From a bacterium BMS3Bbin13 (GTDB lineage Bacteria; Pseudomonadota; Gammaproteobacteria; 21-64-14): DNA of 34,791 nucleotides. Position numbers and translations under genes: made by a program. Location of the stretch: the NCBI GenBank assembly GCA_002897735.1, contig BDTW01000035.1, positions 1 through 34,791 on the forward strand, written 5' to 3'. Below, one piece after another: positions 17,011-19,860 of this stretch. The number at the start of each line of letters is the position of its first letter. The first letter of the stretch is position 1. Under the pieces are notes generated by a model. The model was given only the letters and a program-made list of their open reading frames with translations, was not told where the DNA came from and made no database searches.

Positions 17011-17124
17011 CCGGAAGCACGCCGGAAATCCGCCGCTGCGCCGGTGAATCCGTGTCAACCTCCGTGCTGCCGGGGCGTTATAAGAACTTGAAAGCCATTC
17101 AATCCGATCAGAGGGGCGTTGCCG

Positions 17125-17559
17125 ATGAGAACCAGTCGCAGTCTTAAAGGGTGGTCCGTGGTGGCCTGCACGGTGTTGGTTGTTGGGGTGATGGCAGGAC
17201 CGGTGACCGCCCGAGCCGATCAGTCCAGGGCCGGTGAGCGGGTGGAACACCGTCTCGAACACCGGGGAGATCGCGTGGACCGTCGCCTCGATCGCCGCGG
17301 TGAGCGTCTCGATCGGCGGCTGGACCGCCGCGGCGAGCGGGTCGAGCACCGTTTCGACCGGCGGGCGGGTCGCGCCGCGGCCAATGGCCACGAACGCCGG
17401 GCCGGGCGCCTGCATCGTCGCGGTGAGCGGGTGGAACATCGCCTGAATCGTCGCGGCGACCGCATCGAGCGGCGGCTGGACCGGCACGGCGACCGTTTCG
17501 AACGACGCATGGACCGACGGGCCGGACGGGTGGAGCGCCGTGTGGGACGTCGCCGCTGA
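17125..17559 (+). CDS. Exported arginine-rich protein of 11-residue repeats
   Basis: The 144-aa protein opens with a clear signal peptide (hydrophobic core VVACTVLVVGVMAG, cleavage near ARADQ). The mature part is almost entirely an 11-residue repeat of the form RRGERLDRRLD, in two arrays of four to five units. The arrays are separated by a short AAANGHERRAGRLH linker that keeps the basic character. At DNA level this is a 33-bp degenerate tandem repeat. Hendecads favour long helices or coiled coils, and the net charge is strongly positive, suggesting binding to an anionic polymer such as nucleic acid or lipopolysaccharide; that is inference. The ATG at 17125 follows AGAGGGG by 8 nt; a TTG at 17119 is less likely. 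It precedes the ECF sigma operon by 98 bp. The family is not recognised. Confidence 0.65.
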   Translation: MRTSRSLKGWSVVACTVLVVGVMAGPVTARADQSRAGERVEHRLEHRGDRVDRRLDRRGERLDRRLDRRGERVEHRFDRRAGRAAANGHERRAGRLHRRGERVEHRLNRRGDRIERRLDRHGDRFERRMDRRAGRVERRVGRRR

Positions 17560-17657
17560 GGCCGGTGTCGCGCACCGGACCCGCGTCGCACGGAGGGCGA
17601 CGCAGGTCCCTTTCGGGATAGGGGCGGGGAGGCCGGGCGCTGAACAGCGATGGAGAG

Positions 17658-18191
17658 TTGGACCGGTTTTTGGCCGGGGTGGAACGCCGTGCGCTACGCA
17701 TGGCGGAATTCGCCGTCGGCGATCGCGATCAGGCCCTCGACCTGGTGCAGGACGCCATGATGCGGTTGGCGGGACGCTATGCGGATCGCCCCGCGGCACA
17801 GTGGCCGCCGCTGTTCCATCGGATCCTGCAGAACCGGATTCGCGACTGGCGGCGGCGCGAGCGTTTGCGTCGGCGCCTGCATGCGTGGTGGGATGGGTCG
17901 CCGGGCGGCGATCCCGATGAGGCGCAGGGGGATCCGATGGACCGCCTGCCGGACCCGCGCGGCGCGACCCCGCTCAAGGAGATCGCGCGCGCAGGGGCGA
18001 TCGCGGCGCTGGAGCATGCGTTGCGCGCGTTGCCGCCCCGACAGCAGCAGGCGTTCCTGCTGCGGGTCTGGGAGGGTCTGGGCGTGGCGCAGACGGCGCG
18101 TGCCCTGGGTTGCTCGGAGGGGAGCGTGAAGACCCATTATGCGCGGGCGCTGCGGACGTTGCGCAGCCGTTTGGAGGAGTATCGACCATGA
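17658..18191 (+). CDS. ECF-type RNA polymerase sigma factor
   Basis: The 177-aa protein has a sigma region 2 (AEFAVGDRDQALDLVQDAM, then WPPLFHRILQNRIRDWRRR) and a sigma region 4 helix-turn-helix (ALRALPPRQQQAFLLRVWEG, then ARALGCSEGSVKTHYARAL). The linker is short, as in ECF sigmas, and there is no region 1 or 3. The frame has no ATG near the start: TTG 17658 gives MDRFLAGVERRALRMAEF with GGAG just before it, and CTG 17640 would add six residues. Its stop overlaps the ATG of the next gene (ATGA). It presumably activates this cluster, but no promoter of its own class could be identified. Confidence 0.88.
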   Translation: MDRFLAGVERRALRMAEFAVGDRDQALDLVQDAMMRLAGRYADRPAAQWPPLFHRILQNRIRDWRRRERLRRRLHAWWDGSPGGDPDEAQGDPMDRLPDPRGATPLKEIARAGAIAALEHALRALPPRQQQAFLLRVWEGLGVAQTARALGCSEGSVKTHYARALRTLRSRLEEYRP

Positions 18192-18547
18192 GGGCGGCGG
18201 GCGAGGAGGAATTCCTGCGACGGGTCCGGGAGGGCCTGGACGCCGGGGCGGGCGCCCTGGACGCGGCGACGGTGATGCGGCTGCACCGTGCGCGGGCGCA
18301 CGCCATCGAGGCGGCCGGCGGGCGTGCCCGCCGGGTCCGCGGATGGGTCCCGGCGGCGGCCGCAGCGGGCGTGGTCGCACTGGTCGTGTGGATCGGCTGG
18401 AGCGGCCCGATGCACCGTCAGACGCCGGCGCCCGCCGTGGCGGCGCGGCTCGAGGCGGCCGAGGTGCTCGCGAGCGGCGCGAACCTGGATCTGTACGAGA
18501 ACCTGGATTTCTATGCGTGGCTCGCCCATGGCCCGGGGCACGGTTGA
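18188..18547 (+). CDS. DUF3619-like single-span membrane protein, putative anti-sigma factor
   Basis: The 119-aa protein has a cytoplasmic N-terminus with EFLRRVREGLDAGAGALDAA and RLHRARAHAIEAA, one membrane span at about residues 53-71 and a short periplasmic tail ending NLDLYENLDFYAWLAHG. This resembles the DUF3619 family found after ECF sigma genes. Its start overlaps the sigma stop (ATGA), which supports a regulatory pair. No zinc-binding HxxxCxxC anti-sigma motif is present, so the anti-sigma role is inferred from topology and context. Confidence 0.65.
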   Translation: MRAAGEEEFLRRVREGLDAGAGALDAATVMRLHRARAHAIEAAGGRARRVRGWVPAAAAAGVVALVVWIGWSGPMHRQTPAPAVAARLEAAEVLASGANLDLYENLDFYAWLAHGPGHG

Positions 18548-18819
18548 GCACCTCGCGCCCCTGTCGGCGCTGCTGATTCATCGGCACCCGGCGGCGGCGC
18601 AGCCGGACCCCCGGGCCGGGCGCGCCGCGCCCGCCACGACGCACGGTGCCCGACCCGGCGCTCCTGGAGTACCTGGGTTTCTTTGAGACCGCCGACGGGC
18701 GCCGGATCGATCCGATGAGCCTGGCGACGTCCCCGGCCGATCCGGGACCGCCCGCCGATGCCGGCTCCGACTCCGGCTCCGACCGGTCGCACGACAACGC
18801 AGGAGGCAACGAGCGATGA
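18528..18819 (+). pseudogene. Frameshifted small gene between the DUF3619-like and DUF3106 genes
   Basis: Two halves of what looks like one short exported protein sit in different frames. From ATG 18528 one frame gives a signal-peptide-like stretch LAPLSALLIHRHPAAAQPDP. A second frame, open from 18577 to the TGA at 18817, gives VPDPALLEYLGFFETADGRR and a Pro/Asp/Ser-rich tail. The second frame ends in an ATGA overlap with the DUF3106 start, as expected of a real operon gene. A GTG at 18646 could start a 57-codon version. One indel near 18600-18646 would join the halves; it could be a true mutation or a sequencing error. Function unknown. Confidence 0.5.
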
Positions 18820-19388
18820 ACCCGATGCGACGCCGCGTATGCGGCGGGATCCTGGCCTTGGCGGTGTTGCCGTTGTCGGCCTGGGCGCAACCATCCGGGG
18901 TGTCTCAATCCGGGAACCGCGGGGCCGGGATCGTGCAGGAGGGCGCGATCTCCTGGGACCGGCTCACGCCCCGGGAGCGCGAGATCCTGAAGCCGTTCGC
19001 CGGGCGCTGGGACCGATTATCCGCGGAGCGCCGGCGGCGCCTGCGCCGCGGGGTGGAGCGCTGGAGCCACCTCACCTCCGCACAGCGCGAGCGGGTCCGT
19101 GAGCGGTTCCGGCGCTGGCGTGCGCTGAGCCCCGGGCAGCGGGCACGGATCCGTCGGCGCTTCGAGGAATTCCGCCGGCTCCCGCCACAGGAGCAGAGGC
19201 GCATCCGCCGGCGTTACCGCTGGTTCCAGGGCCTGCCGCCGGAGCGGCGCCGGGAGCTGCGCGAGCGCTGGCGGCGCCTGAGTCCGGAGCGGCGCCGGGA
19301 GTTTCTGGAGCGCCGGCGCCTGCGGCTGCACTCCCGGGGCGCAGCGGAAGGGATCCGCGCGCGCCCCATGAGGCCCCGCGAGCGCTGA
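18816..19388 (+). CDS. DUF3106-like exported protein with seven W/F-x-x-L repeats
   Basis: The 190-aa protein has a signal peptide (hydrophobic core GILALAVLPLSAWAQ) and then seven tandem units. Five are 18 residues long with the pattern W/F-x-x-L-S/T/P-x-x-x-R-x-x-I/L-x-x-x-F/Y; examples are WDRLSAERRRRLRRGVER and WRALSPGQRARIRRRFEE. The last two are 15 long. The pattern matches my recollection of DUF3106. Arginine dominates, so the mature protein is very basic. AGGAGG at 18801-18806 is a strong ribosome site, and ATG 18816 overlaps the stop of the preceding frame. Known DUF3106 neighbours are ECF sigma genes; function is unknown. Confidence 0.75.
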   Translation: MNPMRRRVCGGILALAVLPLSAWAQPSGVSQSGNRGAGIVQEGAISWDRLTPREREILKPFAGRWDRLSAERRRRLRRGVERWSHLTSAQRERVRERFRRWRALSPGQRARIRRRFEEFRRLPPQEQRRIRRRYRWFQGLPPERRRELRERWRRLSPERRREFLERRRLRLHSRGAAEGIRARPMRPRER

Positions 19389-19526: not shown

Positions 19527-19562
19527 GACGGCGTTCGGGATTCGGATTGCGCTTTGGATTTG

Positions 19563-19803
19563 ACATCCTCCCCGGCATGAATGCCGGAGATTCCTACGGC
19601 GCTCAGGCGCGGCATTGAGCCGCTCCCGAGTCGCTTCGGCGGGTTCCTGCTTCATCGGGGCAGGTTGCGGCGCGCAGCGCCCAACACTTACGGCCTCTCC
19701 ACAGGCTTCACTTCCCGCCTGCCCGGCGGTAGGTCTTGCAACATTCACATTATAGGACGGCTGCGCCGTCCGCGCTATCCTTCCCCGCCCTGAACGGCGG
19801 GGC
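19563..19803 (-). mobile_element. IS200/IS605-type 3' remnant: tnpB tail and omega-RNA-like end
   Basis: On the minus strand a run resembles the C-terminal tail of TnpB/OrfB (frames giving NVNVARPTAGQAGSEACGEA and MKQEPAEATRERLNAAPERR, with alternate frame LQDLPPGRREVKPVERP). It is followed by the hairpin at 19572-19587 (ccggcat-ga-atgccgg) and the end ggggaggatgtcaa. At the other side lies ccccgcc-ctgaac-ggcgggg (19783-19802) and a third hairpin at 19755-19771. Hairpins of this kind and the gatgtcaa end are typical of IS605-group ends. No TnpA or RuvC domain is present, so it is a fragment or a non-autonomous derivative. The family call rests on memory of such ends. Confidence 0.55.
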
Positions 19804-19814
19804 TTGCCGCGCAC

Positions 19815-19860
19815 CGGGTCAACGGACCCGGCCGGGCGAACCCGGCCCGATTGACGGGTC
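19815..19860. repeat. Nested palindrome with REP-like core
   Basis: A GGCCGGGC-ga-ACCCGGCC core (19830-19847, one mismatch) is enclosed by gtcaa (19818-19822) and ttgac (19851-19855), with an additional cgggtc/gacccg pair at 19815-19830. It ends 31 bp before the pntB stop and could also act as a terminator for the transhydrogenase operon. Confidence 0.55.

Follow-up and report, generated by a model that had tools for sequence, protein, structure and literature searches.

The five-gene locus examined here lies in a 34,791-nt contig of bacterium BMS3Bbin13 (hereafter the window; BDTW01000035.1). Judging from its sequence, it is a system of the SigAb-AabA-AabB type described in Acinetobacter baumannii (PMC12153292), because its sigma factor shares 41% identity with SigAb and falls into the same equivalog, its promoter has the same -35 and -10 elements, and the order is the same, with anti-sigma gene aabA and then DUF3106 gene aabB. 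Very probably, these genes make up a single autoregulated operon of this kind, whose repeat proteins are exported as effector and feedback products. Beyond what was described there, the analysis adds the wide distribution of the system, a repeat protein as the first gene of the operon, a small acidic gene and a predicted regulon.

Organization of the operon

Table 1. Features of the operon in the window.
Feature	Position	Strand	Basis or remark
ECF promoter GTCAAC-N16-CGTT	17054..17079 (-35 17054-17059, -10 17076-17079)	+	motif match, conservation, SigAb identity
Gene 1, exported 144-aa protein with 11-residue repeats (RGxRhxxRhDR)	17125..17559	+	first gene after promoter; same in relatives
ECF sigma factor, SigAb/PRK09047 type; TTG start 17658, possibly CTG 17640	17658..18191	+	NF006550
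DUF3619 membrane protein of 119 aa with a single TM helix; putative anti-sigma factor, AabA counterpart	18188..18547	+	PF12279
Small exported acidic protein gene, frameshifted here	18528..18819	+	intact relatives
Exported DUF3106 protein of 190 aa with helical repeats of 18 residues; counterpart of AabB	18816..19388	+	PF11304

The five genes, which span 17125-19388, follow each other in the order given by an earlier sequence-only reading of this DNA. The ATGA overlaps that it had pointed out between the sigma and DUF3619 genes and between the small gene and the DUF3106 gene were confirmed on the sequence, whereas 98 nt separate gene 1 from the sigma gene. The two flanking repeat proteins, called unrelated in that reading, differ in their repeat periods (11 and 18 residues) and in their predicted folds. 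Rfam gave no match in the window, and a scan for sigma-70 promoters and terminators yielded nothing useful.

Downstream of the operon, between the DUF3106 gene and a pntB-like gene (19561-19815), lie two palindrome-bearing stretches, CCTCCCCGGCATGAATGCCGGAG and CCTTCCCCGCCCTGAACGGCGGGG. They resemble the termini of an IS200/IS605-type element and enclose no transposase ORF; a repeat search confirmed only the first palindrome.

Families and predicted structures of the gene products

The sigma factor scored 227.6 bits against the NCBIfam equivalog NF006550/PRK09047 (cut-off 173), the product of the third gene 28.5 bits against DUF3619 (Pfam cut-off 22.2) and that of the fifth gene 105.6 bits against DUF3106 (cut-off 24.3). 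A literature search returned no paper mentioning DUF3619 or DUF3106. The DUF3619 protein has a short cytoplasmic N-terminus ahead of its TM helix; it did not resemble any solved anti-sigma structure, and no convincing solved relative was found. The 18-residue period of the DUF3106 protein was reached by none of 2000 shuffles, and its AF2 model is an array of short helices with pLDDT >90 over the repeats.

The small gene had been described as broken, and this proved correct: translation from the start (frame of 18528) is cut short by a stop codon, and the conserved core VPDPALLEYLGFFETADGRRIDP is encoded in a different frame that ends at 18819. An intact copy is found in the one congeneric genome, L015, and in roughly half of the relatives. 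Among all loci examined, it was detected in 47 at E<=1e-3. Its intact products are exported, usually acidic, and share the core P[DE]xELLE[FY]LGxxxxxDGxWxDP. Across the loci, the C-terminal tail of DUF3619 proteins (LExLEFYxWL) resembles the core of the small protein (ELLEFLGxW), as if one mimicked the other.

Relation to SigAb, AabA and AabB of A. baumannii

A literature search for the promoter motif brought up SigAb as one fitting case. In A. baumannii, SigAb drives its own operon, which also holds the genes for the membrane protein AabA and the periplasmic protein AabB; both proteins have anti-sigma activity, and copper stress raises the activity of SigAb (PMC12153292). In tblastn, the window sigma factor was 40.6% identical to A. 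baumannii sigAb (E 2e-26; the matching records are filed as plasmids, some being chromosome-sized). An annotated A. baumannii record holds a sigma gene, a gene for a 106-aa hypothetical protein and a DUF3106 gene; the motif lies 86 nt upstream of sigAb. We take these genes to be the published sigAb, aabA and aabB, an assignment that rests on their order, their sizes and the identical promoter. SigAb scored 236.7 bits against the same equivalog, and AabB scored 38.1 bits against PF11304. In a 39-sequence tree, which was used for grouping only since long branches make exact placement rough, SigAb grouped with the module sigma factors (88/91) and RpoE fell elsewhere; an RpoE-like assignment of the window sigma factor was therefore rejected.

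AabA has no match to PF12279 in Pfam, and its direct score against the DUF3619 profile was not significant (E 0.11). The DUF3619 protein corresponds to AabA in position, size and topology, and a sequence link runs through an intermediate protein (L022), which matches both AabA (BLASTP 1e-9, as a pair) and a DUF3619-like profile built from seven seeds (2e-4). Because of this intermediate, common descent of AabA and DUF3619 is likely but not proven.

The sequence-only reading had called the biological role of the neighborhood unknown. This is no longer wholly so, since the A. baumannii system is of the same kind. Joining SigAb with DUF3106 gives a lead to the function of this family through AabB, a periplasmic negative regulator, and DUF3619 becomes a testable anti-sigma family. 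The wider family would also provide harmless hosts in which the SigAb pathway can be dissected in the laboratory.

Conservation of the module across genomes

The co-occurrence that the sequence-only reading had proposed to look for was found in two sets. The first comprised 66 strong sigma-family matches in 229 genomes of the window's class, and 60 of these were followed by a DUF3106 gene on the same strand, 392-832 nt downstream. The second comprised 80 named contigs picked by similarity to the sigma factor alone; a DUF3619-like gene was present in all 80 and a downstream DUF3106 gene in 77. On the basis of this co-occurrence and of the conservation of the promoter, a chance neighborhood was rejected.

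The module is divergent from a priA-like gene in many Gammaproteobacteria, the window included, and adjoins an acetolactate-synthase-like gene in several Betaproteobacteria (both names by reading of the proteins). Contigs labelled Nitrospira, Trichlorobacter, Syntrophales and Zetaproteobacteria carry the module as well. SigAb was called Acinetobacter-specific in the mBio 2025 paper (PMC12153292); given these contigs, that description is too narrow, and the SigAb family is not Acinetobacter-specific.

A conserved promoter ahead of the first gene

The shared elements GTCAAC and CGTT first became apparent upstream of seven loci that carry the 11-mer gene. Within the window, GTCAAC-N16-CGTT occurs once, ~45 nt 5' of the gene 1 ATG and ~600 nt 5' of the sigma gene. 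The same -35 (GTCAAC) and -10 (CGTT) elements of SigAb were defined by mutagenesis, with a spacer of 16-18 nt; the native spacer is 17, and 16 is nearly as good (PMC12153292). The exact motif was found within 1.2 kb upstream of the sigma gene in 66 of 87 operons, compared to a mean of 0.06 and a maximum of 1 in Markov resamplings. The spacing of 16 is almost fixed. As a control, a 17-base spacer gave 54 matches across the 229 genomes, and the 16-base spacer gave at least 150. The extended consensus reads TGTCAACC-N14-GCGTTAWA, and the motif can be used for scanning many genomes.

Where an extra exported gene stands ahead of the sigma gene, the motif lies ahead of that gene (window, L015-L018, L039, L044, L045, L054, L070, L073, L083, L085, L086, L088 and L103). 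In ~10 loci with a repeat gene, it precedes the repeat gene and has no copy between this gene and the sigma gene. Since the motif lies ahead of the 11-mer gene in the window as well, gene 1 is the first gene of the sigma factor's own operon. Its membership had earlier been raised only as possible, and the search for a common ECF promoter upstream of the locus had been recommended. Together with the co-occurrence, this promoter supports the proposal of a single ECF-controlled unit that exports repeat proteins.

Upstream of the betaproteobacterial relatives (about 12 loci), GTCAAC-N16-CGTT was absent, and these operons therefore probably use a different promoter. Betaproteobacterial sigma operons form a branch of their own (L079, L084, L090, L094, L096, L097 and L099-L102).

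Exported proteins in the first slot

The gene 1 product has a signal-peptide-like start (MRTSRSLKGWSVVACTVLVVGVMAGPVTARA, followed by DQ) and contains 43 Arg among 113 mature residues. Its self-identity is 49% at lag 11, a value reached by none of 2000 shuffles. The predicted structure is a two-helix hairpin (residues 28-86 and 90-143) with a conserved central turn and a pLDDT of mostly 75-90; no convincing relative of the 11-mer protein was found among solved structures. A highly cationic character, which the sequence-only reading attributed to these proteins, does not hold as a general trait of gene 1, as its relatives range from +1 to +22 in net charge (last 110 residues).

In relatives, the first slot is also held by G-x-G hexarepeat proteins (L016, L070, L073), by His/Arg/Tyr-rich exported proteins (L083, L103) and by a Lys/His-rich one (L086). 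Exported hexarepeat proteins (VQGRGVVQGRG...) are located behind the same promoter at L016:3008-3457, L070:4471-4896 and L073:4291-4620, and in L126 and L198; the L070 protein joins an 11-mer start (RGERIEHRL) to G-x-G repeats. The locus thus points to exported repeat-protein families for which no description was found.

Predicted regulon

The extended motif GTCAACC-N14-GCGTT was scanned in 63 sigma-bearing and 166 other genomes. Among the matches listed, at least 33 were at the operon and at least 72 off the operon in the 63 sigma-bearing genomes, and at least 45 were in the 166 genomes without the sigma factor. A signal-peptide-like ORF, called by a simple home-made heuristic, followed the off-operon site in 40/74 cases in sigma-bearing genomes and in 9/44 cases in the others (Fisher p 0.0003, matches listed).

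A DUF4382-type lipoprotein of 514-644 aa recurs as a predicted target in more than twelve genomes, where its gene frequently follows closely on the DUF3106 gene; it is a strong candidate for a regulon member. A SigAb-type motif lies just upstream of such a lipoprotein gene in L035, L038, L093, L117-L122, L124, L125, L127, L128 and L237. A search with PF14321 (DUF4382) was rejected as a finder of these lipoproteins, as it mostly returned other DUF4382 proteins. Further predicted off-operon targets are unlinked 11-mer genes (L133, L176, L177), G-x-G repeat proteins (L126, L198), glycine-zipper lipoproteins (L131, L154, L175) and, as single cases, a weak LTXXQ-like protein (L123) and an EF-hand protein (L134). 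The presence of the motif before unlinked genes for exported proteins is consistent with a regulon of such proteins.

A small exported family (SGxLTxxExxRLxxEQxxIxxxExxxKADGxLTxxERxKL...IYRxKH) was also seen behind the motif (L043:6730-7059, L052 after 1792, and L210). Its hosts are Thermodesulfobacteriota and one genome of the window's class in which the module sigma factor was not found.

In the window's own genome, GTCAAC-N16-CGTT gave 6 matches and the reversed control also 6, i.e., no excess. The five matches other than the operon promoter were rejected as targets, as they do not exceed the reversed control and lie mostly inside ORFs. The genome lacks the DUF4382 lipoprotein, and the PF14321 search gave no match in it. 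As no further target stands out, the regulon here may consist mostly of the operon itself. One other genome (G163) had 111 matches to the reversed control pattern, presumably from a repeat family.

Proposed mechanism and alternatives

In the mechanism that we propose, the DUF3619 protein would use its short cytoplasmic part to keep the sigma factor at the membrane. In the periplasm, the DUF3106 protein, with the small acidic protein where this is intact, would set the stability or state of the DUF3619 protein. An envelope signal, possibly metal-related like copper for SigAb, would free the sigma factor, which would then raise expression of its own operon and thus the export of the 11-mer and DUF3106 proteins as effector and feedback products.

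A speculative refinement of this mechanism, rather than a strict alternative, is that the basic repeat proteins and the DUF3106 protein act primarily as a sensor: bound to the acidic periplasmic DUF3619 tail, they would keep the sigma factor off until a damaged envelope, another polyanion or a metal titrates them away. CpxP and RseB are precedents for such an exported-protein sensor, and the charges across loci are complementary, with median net values of -11 for the periplasmic DUF3619 tail and -13 for the small protein, against +14.5 for the DUF3106 protein and +14 for the 11-mer protein. Moreover, in a published model AabB wraps around the end of AabA that lies in the periplasm (PMC12153292). 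In the window, however, the charge of the DUF3619 tail is just -3 and the small gene is frameshifted, and most relatives are without the 11-mer protein. We consider this refinement rather unlikely.

It is improbable that the DUF3619 protein is a membrane effector or adaptor instead of an anti-sigma factor, with the DUF3106 protein or another protein as the real inhibitor. This reading would fit the lack of likeness between DUF3619 and solved anti-sigma structures, and in the published assay SigAb activity was likewise reduced by AabB on its own. However, the cytoplasmic part of AabA alone is a potent inhibitor of SigAb (PMC12153292), and the DUF3619 gene overlaps the sigma gene directly, encodes a protein of AabA-like topology and is conserved in every one of the sigma-picked loci.

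Still less probable is that sigma, DUF3619 and DUF3106 form the regulatory unit and the 11-mer gene is an unrelated neighbor with its own regulation: this gene is present in only about 11/87 loci, many relatives lead directly from the motif to the sigma gene, and the 98-nt gap differs from the overlaps elsewhere, but the sigma promoter precedes the 11-mer gene and is not repeated behind it, other repeat families fill the same slot, and where the 11-mer gene is found apart from the module (genomes G197, G228 and G112), the situation that the sequence-only reading had named as speaking against one unit if regulation were also independent, it carries the same motif.

The autoregulated operon remains the preferred reading. 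In a broader and more tentative proposal, which we put forward with limited confidence, SigAb may belong to an ECF family that spans several phyla (Gammaproteobacteria, Nitrospirota, Thermodesulfobacteriota and others). The main task of this family would be to deploy DUF4382 lipoproteins and a set of exported repeat proteins of low complexity (11-mer Arg/Asp helices, G-x-G hexarepeats and His-rich proteins), and the basic exported products would read out the acidic DUF3619 tail, giving a feedback sensor for stress from the envelope or from metals.

Comparison with known systems

Like the Apolipoprotein A and LEA-type 11-mer proteins, the gene 1 product has 11- and 22-residue amphipathic helical periodicity and a weak score to the Apolipoprotein family in Pfam. 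It differs from them in being bacterial, Arg-rich and a hairpin, and membership in PF01442 was rejected (20.2 bits against a cut-off of 90). The DUF3106 protein resembles Spy/CpxP (LTXXQ) in being exported and helical with repeated L-[TS]-P-x-[QR] motifs, but it has an 18-residue repeat array, no LTXXQ match in Pfam and no significant fold match in the PDB.

The RpoE-RseA-RseB system of E. coli, like the window with its putative anti-sigma factor and co-regulator, combines an ECF sigma factor, a membrane anti-sigma factor and a periplasmic co-regulator in one operon. In contrast, its promoter is different, its sigma factor belongs to a separate clade, and RseA has 217 aa compared to 119 aa here. 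To our knowledge, RseB is not a relative of DUF3106. The CnrH-CnrY-CnrX system of Cupriavidus metallidurans shares the small single-pass anti-sigma factor; CnrH is a weak profile match to the window sigma factor (E 1.6e-4), and no CnrX-like protein was seen. The AabA-SigAb pair was modelled as CnrY-CnrH-like (PMC12153292).

Compared to the SigAb operon, the window has two additional genes, the 11-mer repeat gene in first position and the broken small acidic gene. Its anti-sigma candidate matches DUF3619, whereas AabA does not, and its DUF3106 protein is longer than AabB (190 vs 129 aa). The published direct targets of SigAb are relA and sabS, not exported repeat proteins (PMC12153292), and these two were not found as targets here. 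Both systems share a sigma factor of the same equivalog, the -35 and -10 elements, and overlapping genes in the order sigma factor, one-TM protein and DUF3106 protein.
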